Shown: positions 902 through 19,999 of the stretch, in pieces
Layout: each line of letters opens with the position of its first letter
How positions within the stretch are numbered: position 1 is the stretch's first letter
Origin: a virus
Virus record (IMG/VR): IMGVR_UViG_3300035703_000466
Location: 1-20,476 of that record
DNA: 20,476 nucleotides
Strand: one strand, 5' to 3'
Made by a program: the position numbers and the translations under genes
Notes under the pieces: model-generated
The model's database searches: none
What the model was told of the DNA's origin: nothing
The model's input: only the letters and a program-made list of their open reading frames with translations

Positions 902-1285
902 TTAACTTGTGAAAATTGCTGCTGCCAGCACAAACTGGTCATCTTGGGAAGAGTTGATAACAAACGCCGTTGTAGCAACCTGGGTCGTGCTTGTGCTTGC
1001 TGCAGCCGTAGGAGCAGCAGGAGTTCCCGTAAATGTTGGGCTGGCAATATCGGCCTTCAAAGCCACGTTGGCAACAGTTGCATAAGTTGACGCAGCAGTA
1101 GTGGAATCCAATTTGGATGAAACCAAATTGGTTATTGCCGTAGTCGTAGAAACGTACTCTGCAACATCCAAAACAGAAACCTTCTTGGTTTCCGTCGCAG
1201 ACACATCAACGATTGGCAAGACATCGCCAGCAACAATATTTGCGGCTGTTAATGCCGTTAACGTAGAAATCTTTTTATCAGCCAT
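902..1285 (-). CDS. Tail fibre protein with fibre-repeat segment, 127 aa
   Basis: Product of 127 aa beginning MADKKISTLTALTAANIVAG. Residues about 80-110 (ALKADIASPTFTGTPAAPTA, then TSTTQVATTAFV) match the well-known phage fibre repeat of the type 'A-SPTFTG-P-AP-A--T-T-QIATTAFV', which forms trimeric fibre shafts. The start ATG at 1285 overlaps the stop of the preceding gene by one base (TAATG), so translation is probably coupled. The last residues, DDQFVLAAAIFTS, resemble the end of the 79-aa protein two genes upstream (GDQSILAAQVFS), suggesting a common terminal docking motif. The fibre assignment is strong by motif; the position within the virion is inferred. Confidence 0.78.
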   Translation of the reverse strand: MADKKISTLTALTAANIVAGDVLPIVDVSATETKKVSVLDVAEYVSTTTAITNLVSSKLDSTTAASTYATVANVALKADIASPTFTGTPAAPTAAASTSTTQVATTAFVINSSQDDQFVLAAAIFTS

Positions 1286-1581
1286 TACCCATTACTCGCT
1301 TCCAATAGCAAAAACGATCCATCTTCTAATAGCAAATCCGTTCCGTCCTCTAATTCGAGGTTAGAAACAACAAAATCGGGGTCAGACCAAAAGTTGTTAG
1401 CCAAATCAGCCAACGTAAACCCAGGTGCACCCTGACTGACGTAATACTGATGTTCAGCCAAACCGCTAAAAGCAGTACCTGTGGCAGCACGATGTGCCGC
1501 CAACAGGTCGGTTAACGTCCTGCCAGCAGTCGGGTACATAACTGTCAGCGACTCGAACATTGCATCGTTTGTTGTCGCCAT
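1285..1581 (-). CDS. Tail-region protein with Leu/Glu/Asp repeat end, 98 aa
   Basis: Product of 98 aa starting MATTNDAMFESLTVMYPTAG. The N-terminal part is predicted helical (LTDLLAAHRAATGTAF). The C-terminus holds two or three copies of a short repeat, LELEDGTD / LLLEDGS / FLLLE, which resembles the short beta-solenoid-like ends seen on structural proteins of marine and freshwater phages. The ATG at 1581 overlaps the previous stop (TGATG) and its own stop overlaps the next start (TAATG), placing it firmly in the coupled tail cassette. I do not recognise a named family. A minor fibre or baseplate role is inferred from position. Confidence 0.62.
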   Translation of the reverse strand: MATTNDAMFESLTVMYPTAGRTLTDLLAAHRAATGTAFSGLAEHQYYVSQGAPGFTLADLANNFWSDPDFVVSNLELEDGTDLLLEDGSFLLLEASNG

Positions 1582-1820
1582 CAGCTAAACACCTGTGCAG
1601 CCAAAATGCTCTGATCACCCTCGCTGAATCCAGCTGCGAGCTTCGCTAAGGTAACAGCCCCATCCTGAATCTTTGTCGTGGTGACCGCATTCGCATCAAG
1701 GTTTGTGCCAGCCGCTAACGCTTCAACAAAAGTCTTTACGTCAACGAAGTTTGAGTTGACCTGACTTGCGGACGCAGTCTGACCGTTCGTGAATTGATAT
1801 GTGACGTTTAAAGTAGCCAT
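1581..1820 (-). CDS. Short tail fibre-like protein, 79 aa
   Basis: Product of 79 aa, MATLNVTYQFTNGQTASASQ..., containing the phrase 'NVTTTKIQDGAVTLAKLA' in slightly varied form (residues about 45-63). This is close to the 'ITTAKIADGAVTTAKL' segment repeated in many phage fibre and collar proteins. The N-terminal 'Y-FTNGQTASASQVNSNF' block is also typical of fibre-adjacent proteins. The start overlaps the stop of the nozzle gene by one base (TAATG at 1820). Its tail, GDQSILAAQVFS, is echoed at the end of the 127-aa fibre protein. It is probably a fibre adaptor or a short fibre subunit. The motif is visible; the precise role is inferred. Confidence 0.7.
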   Translation of the reverse strand: MATLNVTYQFTNGQTASASQVNSNFVDVKTFVEALAAGTNLDANAVTTTKIQDGAVTLAKLAAGFSEGDQSILAAQVFS

Positions 1821-11422: not shown

Positions 11423-11744
11423 AGCTTCACTAGGTGCCCCCAGAATGGCACCAGAAGCGTCCTAAGGCTCGCACAGCGACACAACCCTGACCTTGGGTCA
11501 GACATATCCAAAACCATCCACGCGGCCCTGGCACGACGGAGTCCCTAGTCGATTTGGGTGTGGGGGCCCCCTATGCCCCCAGGACGCCTGCGCTTAGTTG
11601 GTCTGTAACTCTAGTTCTAGCCCTGAAACCTATACGGGCGCTGGTCTACAGATTCGCCCCAAATACATATATGTAGGCGCGCTTGACATCGTAGATCGAT
11701 GCCAACGACAGCCCGCGAAACATAAACCAACACAACAAAAAGAG
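11423..11744 (+). other. Structured non-coding region, about 320 bp
   Basis: I found no convincing gene here. It contains several stem-loops in order. GCTTC/GAAGC encloses GGTGCC/GGCACC (11424-11458). CTGACC/GGTCAG (11487-11501) forms part of a copy of the intergenic motif. The palindrome GGGGGCCCCC (11562-11571) can also pair with CCCCC at 11576-11580. GGGCG/CGCCC lies around 11635-11660, and ACATATATGT lies near 11663. A TTGACA at about 11683 has no good -10 at the standard distance. GC content is higher than in the next genes. Candidates are an untranslated leader, a small RNA gene or a replication origin. It does not fold as a tRNA by eye. Confidence 0.5.
11481..11501 (+). promoter_or_regulatory. 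Intergenic motif copy 1
   Basis: ACAACCCTGACCTTGGGTC, followed by AG, matches the recurrent motif (consensus about GTCAACCCTGATCTTGTGTC) with a few changes, and forms its own small hairpin CTGACC-TTG-GGTCAG. It lies after the 58-aa gene, before the next rightward block. It is one of six plus-orientation copies in the right half. Confidence 0.5.
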
Positions 11745-11758
11745 TTTGCATATGCAAA
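11745..11758. promoter_or_regulatory. Palindromic operator-like site over a start codon
   Basis: A perfect 14-bp palindrome, TTTGCATATGCAAA. Its centre lies just before the ATG at 11752, so the site covers the start codon of the 146-aa gene. The same core recurs at 12216, 13295 and 14148. A protein bound here, or a hairpin formed here in RNA, would block translation or transcription of the first gene of the block. The repeat is seen directly; the operator role is inferred. Confidence 0.6.
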
Positions 11759-12192
11759 TTCGTTACAGAAAAGAGACATTTATCAAAACGTTAGATATTA
11801 CTTCCGCGCTCGCGGTGTACAAGTCAATCAATGAAGATCAAGTATCAATCGGCAGGTTAGAGGATTCTATTTTGTGGAAGTGGTATTCGATTGCTTATGC
11901 GATTATTAATAATCAGATTCAGCGTGATGTGTTTGTGCATCGTGCACGGATGACTGATGAGAATGCGTTGTCGATGGCGGTGAAGATTGCATCGCATGCA
12001 GATGTCAGTGCATCGTTTCGCAACAAGTTAGAGAATGGTGAATTTAAATCGTTGCGTGCCGCTTATGATGCTTGCCCTAAGGGTAAGAGTGGTAAGCCGT
12101 CGTTGAGTGATGATGAGAAGATCACGAATTTTTATTCTCGTATGACGCCTGCACAACGTAAAAAGCATTTGAAGATTCTTCAGTCGTTGTAA
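11752..12192 (+). CDS. Putative DNA-binding-type protein of unknown family, 146 aa
   Basis: The likely start is ATG 11752 (MQIRYRKETFIKTLDITSAL), with an in-frame TTG at 11746 as the alternative; both lie within the TTTGCATATGCAAA palindrome. The protein is mostly helical and basic at its end: LEDSILWKWYSIAYAIINNQ, then ASHADVSASFRNKLENGEFK and a C-terminal YSRMTPAQRKKHLKILQSL. The segment 'ADVSASFRNKLENGEFKSLR' could be an HTH, and the whole resembles a regulator or replication accessory, but I do not recognise a family. It is the first gene of the rightward block beside its own palindrome, so autoregulation is an attractive inference. Codon use is T-rich at third positions, unlike the two genes before it. 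Confidence 0.68.
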   Translation: MQIRYRKETFIKTLDITSALAVYKSINEDQVSIGRLEDSILWKWYSIAYAIINNQIQRDVFVHRARMTDENALSMAVKIASHADVSASFRNKLENGEFKSLRAAYDACPKGKSGKPSLSDDEKITNFYSRMTPAQRKKHLKILQSL

Positions 12193-12205
12193 TTGTTGCC
12201 AGTGT

Positions 12206-12239
12206 TCGTGCAGAGTTTGCATATGCAAATTCTGCACGA
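12206..12239. promoter_or_regulatory. Long palindrome, second copy of TTTGCATATGCAAA
   Basis: The core at 12216-12229 is extended on both sides by TCGTGCAGA and TCTGCACGA, making a 34-bp palindrome with a single mismatched pair. It lies just after the stop of the 146-aa gene. It could be an operator dimer site, or a terminator-like hairpin (no U-tract follows). Confidence 0.68.
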
Positions 12240-12270
12240 TGCAGTGTCAATTGTTGACGCTCGGCCCGAT

Positions 12271-12291
12271 GTCAATCCTGATGTTGTGTCG
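12271..12291 (+). promoter_or_regulatory. Intergenic motif copy 2
   Basis: GTCAATCCTGATGTTGTGTC matches the recurrent motif at 18 of 20 positions. It lies 25 bases before the 33-aa gene. CATAAT, a possible -10, follows within 15 bases, so a promoter/operator arrangement is possible but no matching -35 was found. Confidence 0.55.
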
Positions 12292-12316
12292 TAAACATAA
12301 TAGAAAAGAGAATGCA

Positions 12317-12418
12317 ATGGGTATGTACGAAAAGCAGTTGGAACATGATCTTGATGAATTGGATCAAGTTATTGCAGAGCAAGTTATCCGTGAAAATATT
12401 GAGAGGAGATTAAAGTAA
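12317..12418 (+). CDS. Very small acidic helical protein, 33 aa
   Basis: ATG 12317 opens a 33-aa frame, MGMYEKQLEHDLDELDQVIA, then EQVIRENIERRLK, ending at TAA 12418, whose last A is the first base of the next ATG (TAATG). The heptad pattern of Leu/Ile gives a likely amphipathic helix or coiled coil. Its GAGAGGAG near the end serves as the ribosome site of the following gene. It may be a leader peptide that couples translation or a small partner protein. It is too short for the family to be judged. Confidence rests on the overlap and codon bias. Confidence 0.5.
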   Translation: MGMYEKQLEHDLDELDQVIAEQVIRENIERRLK

Positions 12419-13272
12419 TGTCCGTTTCCGTAAAGGTTCGCACCAAGGTTTTAAATCTTGGTGTTCGTTTAGAGCAAGTCGCCCATCTAATGGGTGATGC
12501 GCATGAACGATTCAATCTTCGCAATGCTCAAGCGACTTGGGCATTGTTTAGATCTACTCATGGCTTCAAGCGTTCTGCTACGAAGTTGTTGACCTATCCT
12601 GATGCCCAATTAAAGTTGGGTAAGTCAAAAGAGTTCACTGTCGGTTTGACGTTACAGCATGCGGATGTTTCGGGTGTTGAGACTTGTGCGTGGCGTGGTG
12701 AGTGCACGAAAGTGTGTGTGCTTGATAACGGCAATGGGCGTTATGCGAATACGCAGAAGGGTCGGGATGTCAAAACCAAGTTTTTGAATGAGTATCCCGA
12801 GTTGTTTGCGGTGCTATTGATTCATGAACTTCGATCGCTTGCACAAAAGTATGAGCGTGTGTTGGTTCGGTTGAATGTGAATAGTGATATTCGTTGGTAT
12901 CGCATTCTTGTTGATCTAACTAATGGTGATGTGCCAGGGTTGCGCAATGTGTTCTTTTACGATTACACGAAGAACCCAGCTATTTTGTCGGGCAATGGCA
13001 AGGTTGCGAAGCATTATCGGATGGCGTACAGCGTTAACGAGAATTCGGATCTTGATAAGGTTCGTGCGTTTGTTGCGCGTGGTGGTACTGCCGCGATTGT
13101 TACGTCACGCAAGAAATCTGATGCACCGCCGAAGCGGTTTATGGGGTTGCGTGTTGTTGATGGTGATGCCACGGATAATCGTTATGACGAGCGTGGTGTG
13201 TGGGTTGATCTTGCCGCTAAGGGTAAGGCCCGTGCGCTTATTGGTGTCAACGACTTCGTGCGTACTATTTAG
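12418..13272 (+). CDS. Gp88-like phage protein, 284 aa
   Basis: Protein of 284 aa. The centre has a Cys cluster, ETCAWRGECTKVCVLDNGNG (C90, C96, C100), then RLNVNSDIRW (about 151-160), VFFYDYTKNP (178-187), a Ser-rich AYSVNENSDL, and the C-terminal VVDGDATDNRYDERGVWVDL. I recognise this combination (C-C-C, NV-SDI-W, F-DYTK, DGD--D-R) as the mycobacteriophage 'gene product 88' type family widespread in phages and plasmids. Its function is not established to my knowledge, though the metal-binding Cys set and conserved acids suggest an enzyme. It is translated from ATG overlapping the 33-aa stop. The family call is from memory, not from a search. Confidence 0.68.
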   Translation: MSVSVKVRTKVLNLGVRLEQVAHLMGDAHERFNLRNAQATWALFRSTHGFKRSATKLLTYPDAQLKLGKSKEFTVGLTLQHADVSGVETCAWRGECTKVCVLDNGNGRYANTQKGRDVKTKFLNEYPELFAVLLIHELRSLAQKYERVLVRLNVNSDIRWYRILVDLTNGDVPGLRNVFFYDYTKNPAILSGNGKVAKHYRMAYSVNENSDLDKVRAFVARGGTAAIVTSRKKSDAPPKRFMGLRVVDGDATDNRYDERGVWVDLAAKGKARALIGVNDFVRTI

Positions 13273-13315
13273 TCAAGGGTGATCTTGTGTCGGGTTTGCA
13301 TATGCAAACCCGACA
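13272..13315 (+). promoter_or_regulatory. Intergenic motif copy 3 joined to a 28-bp perfect palindrome
   Basis: GTCAAGGGTGATCTTGTGTC (motif, 13272-13291) runs directly into a 28-bp perfect palindrome at 13288-13315 with arms TGTCGGGTTTGCAT. It begins at the stop of the Gp88-like gene. In RNA this would be a very stable stem, but the following bases are A-rich, not U-rich, so it is not a standard rightward terminator. An operator or an mRNA-processing/stability element is more likely. The same 50-odd bases recur at 14124. Confidence 0.75.
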
Positions 13316-13358
13316 TACGAATAAAAAAAAAAACAACAAACATAAAAGGAGAAATGCA

Positions 13359-13565
13359 ATGTCAATTTATTCAACCAACTATTCCATTACGGAAATGGAT
13401 GATCAAGAACTAAAAGATTTGATCACTTGTAAATATGTCGAGTTCAATGCGCTTAAGCAAGAGCTAAATAATCTTGCTGAAGAGGCATCGTCCCGCACCA
13501 ATGGTTATCGGAATTTGTTGAATTCCGTAATTACATCAATCATGGTTAACGAATATGTGGCTTGA
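13359..13565 (+). CDS. Small helical protein, 68 aa
   Basis: The start chosen is ATG 13359 with AAGGAG 9 bases upstream; a longer in-frame start at 13287 lies inside the palindrome. The product is MSIYSTNYSITEMDDQELKD..., with a helical middle (EFNALKQELNNLAEEASSRT), then GYRNLLNSVITSIMVNEYVA. No family recognised. It resembles short coiled-coil helper proteins. The last 11 bases overlap the next gene, so the two are probably co-translated. The local sequence is AT-rich. Confidence 0.6.
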   Translation: MSIYSTNYSITEMDDQELKDLITCKYVEFNALKQELNNLAEEASSRTNGYRNLLNSVITSIMVNEYVA

Positions 13566-13785
13566 TCAAATTGAGTTACTCATCCTTATCGGTTGCTCTG
13601 TTGGTATTGGGGCAATTGTGGTGTACATGTTTGATGTGATCGATGCGCTTGACCGTATGGACATGTTTGATGTGCTTGAGGATCAAGAGTGTTTTATCGA
13701 TGGATGTGATTGCGGTGGTTATTACATGTCATGGGATGAGCATCAGAAACAAATACAACAACAAAACAAAGGGGCAGATAAATGA
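13555..13785 (+). CDS. Single-pass membrane protein with Cys-rich tail, 76 aa
   Basis: ATG 13555 lies inside the previous gene. The product starts MWLDQIELLILIGCSVGIGA and continues IVVYMFDVIDALD, i.e. one strong membrane helix at about residues 6-28. It is followed by an acidic outer or inner part, MDMFDVLEDQECFIDGCDCG, with three Cys and ending in a Gln/Lys-rich stretch. It has a holin-like size and layout, and could also be a superinfection-exclusion or lysis-control membrane protein. It ends with ATGA overlap into the next gene. The membrane helix is clear; the role is unknown. Confidence 0.65.
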   Translation: MWLDQIELLILIGCSVGIGAIVVYMFDVIDALDRMDMFDVLEDQECFIDGCDCGGYYMSWDEHQKQIQQQNKGADK

Positions 13786-14123
13786 ACACTATTAATAAGT
13801 TGAGAGTTCACACACCAACAATCGAGTCGATGTTGTGTTGTTCTACGGATGTTGCGCGTAATTTGCGTAACTGGTCTGAGGGTTACTTGGATGCGTTGAC
13901 AACAATGTTCACGATCGAAGAAGAAGGGTTCGATTGTTGGCACAGTTGGTCTGAGGGTGATCATCTTGTTGATGTGAACTTTTATACGATTACTTCTGAT
14001 GCTGGCAATCAGGGGTATGGGTTCATTCCTGGGTTGTATTTGCGTGCTACTGCGTACAGGGTTCGCAATGGCATGACAGATACATATCAGGGTGTGAATC
14101 TGATTACACGTTGTATCGGCTGA
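13782..14123 (+). CDS. Hypothetical protein, 113 aa
   Basis: Starts at ATG 13782 overlapping TGA 13783-13785. It has the sequence MNTINKLRVHTPTIESMLCC..., a helical region (VARNLRNWSEGYLDALTTMF), then a beta-rich end (FDCWHSWSEGDHLVDVNFYT, GFIPGLYLRATAYRVRNGMT). No membrane segment, signal peptide or known motif. It ends at 14123, immediately before the fourth repeat/palindrome element. It is likely an early accessory protein; the function is unknown. Confidence 0.6.
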   Translation: MNTINKLRVHTPTIESMLCCSTDVARNLRNWSEGYLDALTTMFTIEEEGFDCWHSWSEGDHLVDVNFYTITSDAGNQGYGFIPGLYLRATAYRVRNGMTDTYQGVNLITRCIG

Positions 14124-14168
14124 TATCAAGGCTGATCTTGTGTCGGGTTTGCATATGCAAACCCGACA
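14124..14168 (+). promoter_or_regulatory. Intergenic motif copy 4 joined to a 28-bp perfect palindrome
   Basis: Near-identical to the 13272-13315 element: TATCAAGGCTGATCTTGTGT, then the same perfect palindrome (14141-14168, arms TGTCGGGTTTGCAT). It begins one base after the stop of the 113-aa gene, and is followed by an A-rich leader to the 14217 gene. The position just after a stop and before a new ribosome site is the same as in the other copies. Confidence 0.75.
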
Positions 14169-14216: not shown

Positions 14217-14669
14217 ATGAGTTTCAATGTTGATTGGTCAAATACTTTGCAGTACAAGCAGAGCCAAGAGTCAGGCGAACAGTTCCTCGATGACAACGGT
14301 AATCCGCCGTCACCGATCAGTTCTGTGATGTGGATGATGATGGCGTGCGGTATGCACGAGATCTACTTCTCGAATGCATGCGAAATGTTTGCACGAGCCA
14401 AGTTGTACGAAAAGTATTTCTTGGGTGGTTTTGCGTGGAGGATGTGGGATGGCAACGAAACACACGATGTTGTGTTGACTCCTGAGCATGTCCTTAAGTG
14501 TGTCGGATTGGAGGCAAATGTCGAATACGAATATTTGAGCCATTGGATCACGCGCACATGCAAGAACATCAACCAACAGGGTCATCACAGTGTGACCGAG
14601 GCCGAGTTGAAGAAAGAAATTAATGCTTGGTCAATTGAGGCCAACCGTCAGGGAAGAGAGGTGAAGTGA
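14217..14669 (+). CDS. Hypothetical protein, 150 aa
   Basis: ATG 14217 with AAGGAG 7 bases upstream. Sequence MSFNVDWSNTLQYKQSQESG..., then a Met-rich patch (SSVMWMMMACGMHEIYFSNA), LYEKYFLGGFAWRMWDGNET and a helical end. No family recognised. Four Cys and several His are scattered without a clear zinc pattern. It starts a run of plus-strand genes that overlap by 1-4 bases up to 16250. Probably an early cytosolic protein of unknown role. Confidence 0.6.
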   Translation: MSFNVDWSNTLQYKQSQESGEQFLDDNGNPPSPISSVMWMMMACGMHEIYFSNACEMFARAKLYEKYFLGGFAWRMWDGNETHDVVLTPEHVLKCVGLEANVEYEYLSHWITRTCKNINQQGHHSVTEAELKKEINAWSIEANRQGREVK

Positions 14670-18184: not shown

Positions 18185-18358
18185 ATGAAACGGCAAGGTC
18201 AAGACTGGGGTTGCCTAAAGTGTGATAACAGGGTTACTGTCTATGTGGGTTTGTGTGAGCCTCCACGATGTGGTCGCCACTCGGAGGCCGTACGCATGGA
18301 GGTGGTTGATGGACGTCGCAAAAGAAATAGCAGCCCTGAAGAAACTGGATCTGTTTGA
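18185..18358 (+). CDS. Small Cys-rich zinc-ribbon-like protein, 57 aa
   Basis: ATG 18185 with GAGGAG 10 bases upstream gives MKRQGQDWGCLKCDNRVTVY, then VGLCEPPRCGRHSEAVRMEV and a charged tail. C10, C13, C24 and C29 form CxxC...CxxxxC, with a His nearby: a plausible zinc ribbon. It ends at TGA 18358, overlapping the HTH gene by 50 bases in another frame; the HTH ribosome site (GGAGG) lies inside it. The function is unknown. Support comes from the ribosome site and Cys spacing. Confidence 0.58.
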   Translation: MKRQGQDWGCLKCDNRVTVYVGLCEPPRCGRHSEAVRMEVVDGRRKRNSSPEETGSV

Positions 18359-18548
18359 ACAGGTCACAGAAGCGCAGAAGGTGAATGATCGGCTGCTGGC
18401 AGCCCAGGGGCAGATAGCGATGCTTAGGAGGGCCGCAGTGCGTGAATTACGAAGGCAAGGATGGACTCTTCGTGACTTGGCTGAAGAGCTTGACATGTCA
18501 CCGCAAAGGGTGTTACAAATAGAAAAAGGCAGTGGAAGAAAAAAGTAA
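18309..18548 (+). CDS. Helix-turn-helix regulator, 79 aa
   Basis: The start chosen is ATG 18309 behind GGAGG (6 bases), giving MDVAKEIAALKKLDLFEQVT with a helical N-terminus. The C-terminal half, AVRELRRQGWTLRDLAEELD followed by MSPQRVLQIEKG, is a clear HTH of the type found in sigma-70 region 4 and small actinobacterial regulators ('R-LR--GWSLREIA--LGVS-QRV-QI'). A longer in-frame start exists but overlaps the upstream gene. It lies directly upstream of the attachment-site region, so it could be the lysogeny repressor or an integration regulator. The binding site is not known; the intergenic motif and the TTTGCATATGCAAA palindrome are candidates. Confidence 0.75.
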   Translation: MDVAKEIAALKKLDLFEQVTEAQKVNDRLLAAQGQIAMLRRAAVRELRRQGWTLRDLAEELDMSPQRVLQIEKGSGRKK

Positions 18549-18640: not shown

Positions 18641-18671
18641 GACGGTGAGTCGGCCTATAAGCGGGGTTCTG
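18641..18671 (-). other. attP: attP core matching the 3' end of RNase P RNA (rnpB)
   Basis: On the minus strand, CAGAACCCCGCTTATAGGCC followed by GACTCACCGTC reproduces the nearly universal 3' end of bacterial RNase P RNA (E. coli ends ...CAGAACCCGGCTTATCGG...). GGCCGACTC is the form I recall from actinobacteria. One base (CCCC for CCCG) differs from the usual sequence. The match stops at 18671 and the rest of rnpB is absent. A lone rnpB end 100 bases before an integrase gene is what is expected of an attP that restores the host gene after integration. Confidence 0.82.
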
Positions 18672-18730
18672 ATTCAAGATCAGGGTTGACAAGCTCTGAT
18701 CTTGAATATCCTTATCTGCAAGATAAGGAT
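18672..18730. repeat. Two abutting inverted repeats between attP and integrase
   Basis: The first is ATTCAAGATCAG/CTGATCTTGAAT (18672-18683 and 18696-18707), a perfect 12-bp stem with a 12-base loop. Its left half and loop contain the intergenic motif in reverse (GTCAACCCTGATCTTG on the minus strand, copy 7). The second, directly adjoining, is ATCCTTATCT/AGATAAGGAT (18708-18717 and 18721-18730), a perfect 10-bp stem with loop GCA. TTGACA at 18685-18690 may be a -35 for the integrase, though no standard -10 is placed well. They are likely integrase arm sites or operators. Confidence 0.65.
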
Positions 18731-18771
18731 CAGTAAAAGTTGTGTGTGTGCCCTTAACGAAAGGGTATGCA

Positions 18772-19731
18772 ATGAAAAATAATGTTTGTGTTGATGAGTG
18801 GGTTCAGTGGTTGGGTGATGTTCGTAGGTTGAGGTCTGCGACTATTTCTGTTTATCGGTACACGATGGATGAGTTCGTTCGGCATATTGAATCAGTGCCG
18901 TTTGATGCTGTCAACGCTGAGATGGTTGAGTCGTTCATGTGTCGTGTTCGTTCGAAGGGGCGTGTGCCTGCTCCTGCGACACAGAATCGTGATCGAAACT
19001 GTTTGATGAGTTTTTATAAGTTCATGCAGTCTCGTGGGCTTGCACAGACGAATCCTGCGGAGTTGGTTGGTAGGCCTGTTGTGCGTAATCGGCAGGTTAA
19101 GGCGATTCCTGATGATGTGTGGGAGTTGTTTTGGAATTCGCATATCACTGATCCTGATCGTGTGTGGGTTGGGCTTGGTGTTTTTTGTGGTTTGCGTCGA
19201 CGTGAGCTTGTGACTATTGCCCCACGCCATTTTGATTTGAGATCACAAACGATCAATCATTTGGAACGCAAGGGTGGGGGTACCTATTCCATTGAGTACG
19301 GGGAAATGGCCCGTGTTCTTGCTCAGGGTTTGCCTAGGGTGTTGCCCGATGTGGATGGTTGGTTGGCGATGGTTGAGGCGAGTGTGAATTATCGTGCTTC
19401 GCAGAATGCTACGGTTTTGGTGCCGTTTGATGCGCCCGCTCCCGAGTTGACTCGGTATCGGATGAGTTTGACGGAACCAGGGATACCTGACCCAGGTGCT
19501 ATCAATAAGAGGCTTGCAAAGTTAATTGCAAGGTCGGGGTTGGAACGAAATATTTTTTCCCCGCACTCGTTGAGACACACTTGTGCCACTAACCTGATGA
19601 GGTGTGGTGTCCCTGTGGAGGTACTTGCCGACCAGCTCGGTCATAGTTCCATTGAGACAACACGTCGTTACTTGAATACGAGTAATCAGCTCGGTGCTTG
19701 GAGGGTTAACAATGCAAAGGCTAATAGATGA
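18772..19731 (+). CDS. int: Tyrosine recombinase (phage integrase), 319 aa
   Basis: ATG 18772 with AAAGGG 8 bases upstream. The N-terminal SAM-like core-binding domain covers about residues 1-105 (SATISVYRYTMDEFVRHIES, QNRDRNCLMSFYKFMQSRGL). The catalytic domain has all the usual residues: R142 in FCGLRRRELV, K167 in LERKGGG, H265 and R268 in HSLRHTCATNL, H291 in LGHSSIETT and nucleophile Y300 in RRYLNT. It integrates and, with a partner, excises the phage at attP. It lacks the N-terminal arm-binding domain typical of lambda Int (total 319 aa), so it is closer to the XerC/D-sized group. Codon use is G/T-rich at third positions. Confidence 0.94.
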   Translation: MKNNVCVDEWVQWLGDVRRLRSATISVYRYTMDEFVRHIESVPFDAVNAEMVESFMCRVRSKGRVPAPATQNRDRNCLMSFYKFMQSRGLAQTNPAELVGRPVVRNRQVKAIPDDVWELFWNSHITDPDRVWVGLGVFCGLRRRELVTIAPRHFDLRSQTINHLERKGGGTYSIEYGEMARVLAQGLPRVLPDVDGWLAMVEASVNYRASQNATVLVPFDAPAPELTRYRMSLTEPGIPDPGAINKRLAKLIARSGLERNIFSPHSLRHTCATNLMRCGVPVEVLADQLGHSSIETTRRYLNTSNQLGAWRVNNAKANR

Positions 19732-19999
19732 CAAGACAGCAACAAAAGTAAAGAAGCTGTACAAAGATGGCATGAAGATTGTTGACATTGAGGAGACTAC
19801 GGGTCTTGCTCGGTCAACGATTTACTGGCTGCTTGATCGTGAAGGTTCGACTTCTCGTAGGACAAAAAAGAAAGTTCGGTTGACTGCTGACGAGCAAACT
19901 GTCGCACATCTTTACGACCTAATTTTGGAGCAGGAAGAAATGATTCAGGCTCAGGAGGCGGAGATCAAATCTTTGCGTAGGCGTTTACCCAAGAAATAA
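19712..19999 (+). CDS. Small HTH protein with coiled-coil tail, 95 aa (candidate excisionase/repressor)
   Basis: ATG 19712 with GGAGGG 6 bases upstream, overlapping the integrase end by 20 bases. Sequence MQRLIDDKTATKVKKLYKDG, then the HTH 'MKIVDIEETTGLARSTIYWL' (about 21-44, resolvase/Hin-type), a basic linker TSRRTKKKVR, and a heptad helix, EQEEMIQAQEAEIKSLRRRL. Co-translation with the integrase makes it a strong candidate for the recombination directionality factor or a lysogeny regulator. The HTH is well supported by pattern; the role is inferred. Confidence 0.7.
   Translation: MQRLIDDKTATKVKKLYKDGMKIVDIEETTGLARSTIYWLLDREGSTSRRTKKKVRLTADEQTVAHLYDLILEQEEMIQAQEAEIKSLRRRLPKK

Follow-up and report, generated by a model that had tools for sequence, protein, structure and literature searches.

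Cluster A mycobacteriophages, such as L5 and Bxb1, use a repressor/stoperator system of immunity in which the sites and the repressors diverge together (PMC6550527). The stoperators are 13-bp sites, present in up to 30 copies per genome and mostly in one orientation (PMC6550527). Here we describe a set of palindromes built on the core TTTGCATATGCAAA in a stretch of viral DNA of 20,476 nucleotides (hereafter the window), which is the entire IMG/VR record IMGVR_UViG_3300035703_000466, and their counterparts in related freshwater phages. In our estimate there is a probability of roughly 60% that these palindromes serve as operators for a sequence-specific regulator which the phage itself encodes in its first early gene (a product of 146 amino acids in the window). 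Judged by analogy, the nearest working principle would be that of repressor-operator immunity in which specificity has diversified, as it has in Cluster A. As in that cluster, the sites occur in many copies per genome, are spread over transcription units, carry a motif that diverges with the protein and have phage-specific specificities. They differ in being three to seven symmetric palindromes confined to the early side, often within covarying RNA hairpins, and in accompanying a small protein of an apparently different, undescribed family; among the first early proteins there was no hit to a named Pfam or PHROG repressor, in searches that did not include a direct comparison with an L5 repressor. 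No published description of this system was found in open-licence papers.

Two other groups of sites resemble this layout in part. The SAS and ESAS sequences of Cluster K mycobacteriophages, of which the function is unknown, comprise inverted repeats lying directly upstream of the translation starts of a subset of genes; the ESAS are imperfect 17-bp repeats with variable spacers that adjoin the asymmetric 13-bp SAS, and their consensus differs between subclusters (PMC3203893). The palindromes described here share with ESAS the position just before the starts of a subset of genes, the single set per genome and the lineage-dependent consensus, whereas the sequences in our set are unrelated between lineages and a co-varying protein has been identified. 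In ParB, Noc and KorB, a helical helix-turn-helix (HTH) domain reads palindromic half-sites with an evolvable specificity (PMC7383237, PMC11790492, PMC7022226), and switching of that specificity is documented for ParB and Noc (PMC7383237). A similar domain is hinted at here by a structural comparison, and one of the site sequences resembles a parS half-site; in contrast to those proteins, there is no sequence match, the structural Z values are low, no N-terminal nucleotide-binding domain was detected and the sites lie in gene leaders.

Phage regulators that meet their target in RNA are also relevant. Anti-CRISPR-associated HTH repressors of the Aca2 type bind both DNA inverted repeats and mRNA hairpins, and are the closest precedent for a dual mode of action: a small phage HTH autoregulator, with an inverted repeat in a transcribed leader that also forms an RNA hairpin. 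The present system differs from Aca2 in serving several operons rather than one acr-aca operon, in its hypervariable site sequences and in lacking any sequence relation in family searches. In lambdoid N/boxB antitermination, phage-specific RNA hairpins are recognized by cognate, highly divergent early proteins, the specificity of boxB residing in a defined small loop. Phage-specific hairpins and divergent early proteins are common to both systems, but here the loops vary and the stems are invariant.

Palindromes of the window

The window contains four exact copies of the core, at positions 11745, 12216, 13295 and 14148, as given in a preliminary description of this sequence, and no fifth copy exists in it even when up to three mismatches are allowed. 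The third and fourth copies lie within two identical 28-bp perfect palindromes, TGTCGGGTTTGCATATGCAAACCCGACA, and the second within a 34-bp palindrome with a single mismatch, so that the preliminary account of these also holds; the palindrome around the first copy is 20 bp long with one mismatch (coordinates in Table 1). In 200 shuffles preserving dinucleotide composition, no 14-mer was present in more than three copies and perfect palindromes reached 24 bp at most. The copy number and the lengths of the palindromes are far above chance. The mismatch in copies 1 and 2 is in both cases a G opposite a T, which becomes a G.U pair in the sense-strand RNA.

All four sites lie 5' of early genes on the plus strand, the terminase, portal and capsid genes being on the minus strand. 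The first copy had been described as covering a start codon. An ATG at 11752 does lie inside copy 1, and is a possible start of the 146-aa protein, but a non-ATG start further downstream is also possible, the first site ending 13-31 nt before the start codon, sometimes a non-ATG one, in 20 of 33 relatives. An A-rich stretch with no T-run follows sites 3 and 4. The absence of a U-tract after the sites, also reported earlier, was borne out in the window, and a reading as intrinsic terminators was rejected on that ground.

Site words and first early genes in related phages

The exact 26-mer was absent from the viral_contigs set, and the 146-aa protein had no homologue detectable by pattern or by tblastn alone; relatives were therefore anchored on structural genes (loci are numbered L), and the family of the 146-aa protein can be seen only through gene position. 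Three capsid relatives already carried different palindromes: L136 has three copies of TGTGTGCTAGCACACA, and L069 and L080 have copies of CTTAGCG-n3-CGCTAAG and GTTTCA-n4-TGAAAC. The main sample comprised 48 loci anchored on the small terminase gene (TerS), in which the early side spans 1.5 kb or more. There, 42 of the 48 have three to seven copies of one inverted repeat on the early side, three have two copies and three have none. The same detector found three or more copies in none of 240 shuffled loci and in none of 65 loci of other phages. Among the loci without repeats, L223 and L249 are short, and L277 has a different gene context in the stretch concerned, which appears to hold structural-type genes; we do not count it against the pattern. 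Across 249 kb of structural-side DNA in the TerS-anchored loci there are only two site matches, one of them with an atypical spacer; the sites of this group are found almost only on the early side, and mostly in gene leaders. Two other sets of candidate relatives were set aside. The relatives of the GP88 protein (L005-L057) have no GCATATGC-type site and no comparable palindromes, and appear to be other phages that share the GP88 gene; the relatives of a small protein near the early region (L138-L217) are other phages without repeats, and served as a negative control.

Related freshwater phages share the layout of the window, and each lineage appears, from this comparison, to have rewritten the site sequence at all copies. 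The inner arms are invariant among the copies within a phage and make up lineage-specific words, such as TGATAGA, ACTCGGAC, AAGTTTCA, ATAATCCCG, AACTGAGA, TGTAAGA and TTTATACG. The central 0-7 nt vary in sequence, and the spacer length is constant within nearly all phages (it changes by 1 nt within L256 and L289). In nearly all relatives the first two copies are around 430-590 bp apart and flank the first early gene. In eight of the 20 relatives noted above, the start codon is exactly 20 nt 3' of the first site. The first early genes of L225, L228, L253, L260 and L266 have an apparent ATT start behind a good ribosome-binding site, an assignment that is our own, made from the ribosome-binding site and neighbouring sequences. 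ATT is a rare start codon, known from infC, and its apparent use suggests weak or regulated translation. In many relatives a CTATCC or CTATCA sequence recurs at a distance of a few to about 25 nt on the 5' side of the first site, and is perhaps a promoter element.

Recognition of the word by the first early protein would predict that the recognizing part of the protein varies together with the word. The similarity of the words is correlated with that of the N-terminal part in a partial Mantel test controlling for the C-terminal 42 residues and TerS (r = 0.22, p = 0.0003), and shows no such correlation with the C-terminus (p = 0.21) or with TerS (p = 0.71). Individual pairs of phages behave in the same way. 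L260 and L266 have a common C-terminus (score 0.87) and most of the backbone in common, but differ in N-terminus and word; conversely, L266 and L289, as well as L237, L240 and L263, have a common N-terminus and word with unrelated C-termini. In L251 and L241, with aligned backbones 82-89% identical, the first gene and the words have both been replaced, whereas the stems adjoining the word, GAACACACCG...CGGTGTGTTC and GGTCACAAA...TTTGTGGCTC, are unchanged in the two sites compared. At one L251 site, half of the L241 word, GTGAAAC, survives next to the new CTTAGCG word (L069 47-75, minus strand, equivalent to ~3127 on the early strand of L251), and this remnant reads as a snapshot of operator replacement. 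Since word similarity follows the N-terminal part of the protein, and the phage-specific words are rewritten in concert, the earlier suggestion that the 146-aa protein encoded between the first two sites is an autoregulated binder is strongly supported by these comparisons, and we treat the protein as the putative regulator.

The products of the first early genes are 135-169 residues long and have low pairwise identity, but are linked by BLAST in chains; the window protein, for example, has 29.5% identity to that of L278 (E = 8e-8), and two subgroup profiles can be aligned along most of the sequence (E = 9e-6). The first-gene products that were scanned fall in no described Pfam, PHROG or NCBIfam family. 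No Pfam HTH model matches the 146-aa protein, 32 members gave only isolated, chance-level hits to HTH-like models, a tblastn search of 50,697 phage records with three members yielded no match, and a sequence-profile search of the PDB gave chance-level matches only. AlphaFold2 predicts an all-helical fold (mean pLDDT 74.9 for the window protein and 77.8 for that of L292). In a structural second look at the Foldseek candidates for the window model, the best seven matches were the DNA-binding domains of ParB, Spo0J, KorB and Noc, with Z values of 3.4-4.7 over alignments of about 70-80 residues; such ParB-type HTH domains were the only standouts, although other folds were not listed and nothing is excluded thereby. 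This resemblance of a predicted model is a hint, not an assignment. The first early proteins form an undescribed family, which is helical in the models and possibly of HTH type.

DNA operators, RNA hairpins or both

The flanks outside the core are complementary (at least five of eight positions in Watson-Crick pairs) in 40 of 153 distinct sites, where 5.6 would be expected by chance and 2000 control shuffles gave a maximum of 14. The remaining flank positions of those 40 sites include 41 G.U against 13 A.C combinations on the sense strand; composition predicts that 43% of the two together would be G.U (p ~7e-7, uncorrected for relatedness), and a palindrome acting only as DNA gives no reason for such a strand asymmetry. 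In an alignment of the L256, L268 and L271 leaders, which covers seven sites, pairing is present at 97.3% of the positions, whereas structures slid along the alignment reach at most 57%, and 12 of the 21 pairs have two-sided, compensatory changes, a number reached in none of 500 shuffles; because we drew the structure from the same sequences, the paired share is biased toward it and the two-sided changes are not. In the window, each of the four leaders has a more stable fold than all of 200 shuffled sequences (z -3.8 to -6.7), the leader of site 2 (12198-12262) reaching -33.4 kcal/mol. The preliminary description had set protein binding against an RNA hairpin, and had named covarying arms as the mark of RNA and a conserved core as that of protein recognition. 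This contrast is not supported: on the transcribed strand the arms outside the core show covariation that includes G.U pairs, one half of what had been named against protein binding, while the core is invariant. From these comparisons the element appears to combine the two, a recognition core that does not vary and an RNA stem that covaries.

The leaders of L250, L256, L268 and L271 are multi-tiered, with a lower stem, an internal loop, an upper stem containing the word and often a second small hairpin before the ribosome-binding site. Rfam 15 gave no match above the gathering threshold in the window, L256, L271 or L250, and the multi-tier leader could be described as a new RNA element. The orientation of asymmetric loops was also considered as an argument for RNA, and was dropped because inverted copies occur.

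Three sets of observations argue for reading at the level of DNA: the near-constant spacing within each phage, the inverted copies of asymmetric sites (L230 at 7553, L234 at 6224 and L227 at 2992), and the sites of a distant complete relative, MW202803.1 (L298). That 42-kb genome contains 39 GTTTC-n4/5-GAAAC sites, from 199 to 41786 and thus across its whole length, whereas the next most frequent 5-mer pair has four copies. The sites lie on both coding strands and many are inside genes, as expected of DNA sites. One of them is ~24 nt upstream of an unannotated first early open reading frame (ORF; ~1166-1732, plus strand), and the overall distribution is stoperator-like.

As we picture the proposed operator system, the regulator would be an all-helical protein, probably of the HTH type, in which the N-terminal part reads the word and the C-terminal tail is exchangeable, and it would bind the palindrome as a dimer on the DNA in the leader of each early unit. 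As the sites flank the regulator's own gene and precede further early operons, it is most likely an autoregulatory early repressor. Its binding would lower the expression of its own gene and of the other early units, which in a prophage would bring phage-specific immunity and in lytic growth an early shut-off. The same word is transcribed, and would stand at the apex of a leader hairpin with an outer stem kept by compensatory changes at a quarter of the sites, so that the element may also act a second time, through the RNA, on translation or elongation.

Several points weigh against the operator reading. An operator acting purely as DNA would not need the RNA covariation seen in the outer arms, and the spacer, besides its 1-nt changes within the two phages named above, ranges from 0 to 7 nt between families, which is awkward for a single DNA-dimer geometry. 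Taken together, the members of the protein family have no match among the HTH families of Pfam or PHROGs, Foldseek gave no significant PDB match for the window model or for the L292 model, and in the second look the ParB-like Z values of the former are low and the latter had no match. The product of the first early ORF of MW202803 is only a candidate member of the family of the 146-aa protein.

The alternative that fares best has the first early protein binding both targets, the DNA operator for control of transcription and the identical RNA sequence for control of translation. It would bring together the near-fixed spacing, concerted words and inverted copies and the covariation that the same elements show as RNA, although the outer stem could serve mRNA stability alone, and we entertain it only tentatively. 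A wider picture, to which we give a similarly guarded credence, is that one hypervariable small regulator reads the word as a DNA operator and as an apical RNA stem in a large group of uncultured phages, the lineages of which switch specificity by exchanging the N-terminal part and rewriting every early-side site.

Somewhat less likely is a target that is the RNA hairpin and not DNA, the first early protein binding the apical stem in the mRNA leader to block translation or control elongation; the hairpin and the protein that reads it would both be particular to the phage. The G.U excess in the outer arms, the compensatory changes, the stable folds of the window leaders and the short distance from the first site to the start codon are all as such a mechanism would have them, and the apical loops vary in sequence. 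But the core word has no compensatory change within a phage, the spacer length is nearly constant, inverted copies exist in L230, L234 and L227, an extended outer stem is present only in the 40 sites counted above, and the sites inside genes on both coding strands of MW202803 lack extended stems.

Far less probable are centromere- or partition-like sites of the ParB/parS type, or genome-organizing sites with no part in gene regulation: the weak structural resemblance to the ParB, KorB and Noc domains, the 39 genome-wide sites of MW202803 and the likeness of the L227/L241 half-site GTTTCA(C) to the parS half-site of TGTTTCACGTGAAACA (PMC7022226) point that way, but the window-group sites are nearly all on the early side and mainly in gene leaders, no ParB model matches the protein, and in its 146 residues the N-terminal CTP-binding domain of ParB was not detected. 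Mobile or repetitive palindromes (REP/MITE-like) or intrinsic terminators with no cognate protein would explain a hairpin-forming sequence in dispersed copies, but are the least credible, as between close phages the flanks are conserved at homologous positions and the words differ, the word goes with the N-terminal part of a single protein and no U-tract follows the window sites.

Should the sites prove to be operators, about thirty pairs of protein and site would be available in this one set, together with an undescribed family of regulators and several natural experiments in switching, and it would supply distinct regulator-operator pairs from uncultured phages. Two questions become directly testable with it: by what route a regulator with many sites acquires a new specificity in a phage, every site and the reading part being involved, which is still open for the evolution of immunity, and whether it is common for small helical regulators to recognize a single word in DNA and RNA alike.

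Neighbouring genes and a second leader motif

The positions of the four sites and of the genes that surround them are given in Table 1. The 68-aa and 113-aa early proteins have no family match.

Table 1. Palindromic sites and early genes in the window
Feature	Position	Strand	Description
Site 1	11742-11761	+	TTTGCATATGCAAA core with short arms (one G/T mismatch, G.U in RNA); leader/start region of first early gene; RNA fold z -3.8
First early gene	11752-12192	+	146-aa protein, proposed cognate regulator; between sites 1 and 2, as in relatives; start codon uncertain
Site 2	12206-12239	+	34-bp palindrome; arms TCGTGCAGA/TCTGCACGA, complementary yet unlike those of sites 3 and 4; one G.U; RNA fold z -6.7
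Operon 3' of site 2	12317-13272	+	Small ORF (ATG at 12317) and 284-aa GP88-family protein (12418-13272; PF17338, E = 1.3e-27)
Site 3	13288-13315	+	28-bp perfect palindrome in leader of next gene; RNA fold z -4.9
Small early genes 3' of site 3	13359-14123	+	Products of 68, 76 and 113 aa
Site 4	14141-14168	+	28-bp perfect palindrome identical to site 3; RNA fold z -4.9
Early gene 3' of site 4	14217-14669	+	150-aa product

Further along the window are genes for an HTH_3 protein (18222-18548), a tyrosine integrase (18769-19731) and a resolvase-type HTH protein (19706-19999), which are marks of a temperate phage. In a temperate phage, with which the integrase gene fits, a phage-specific repressor would mean immunity. 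No prophage of this group was found in the genome_contigs set, searched with the major capsid protein and with the large terminase subunit (TerL).

A second leader motif, CAACCCTGATCTTGKGTCRGA, stands before several early operons of the window, at 11482, 12273, 14127, 16428 and 17417 on the plus strand and at 18668 on the minus strand. These six copies lie within three mismatches, where none would be expected, and a weaker copy is present at ~13274. Part of the motif is a small hairpin, CTGACC-TTG-GGTCAG. It is possibly the site of another regulator. At 18668-18705, ahead of the integrase gene, an inverted pair surrounds the sequence TTGACA.

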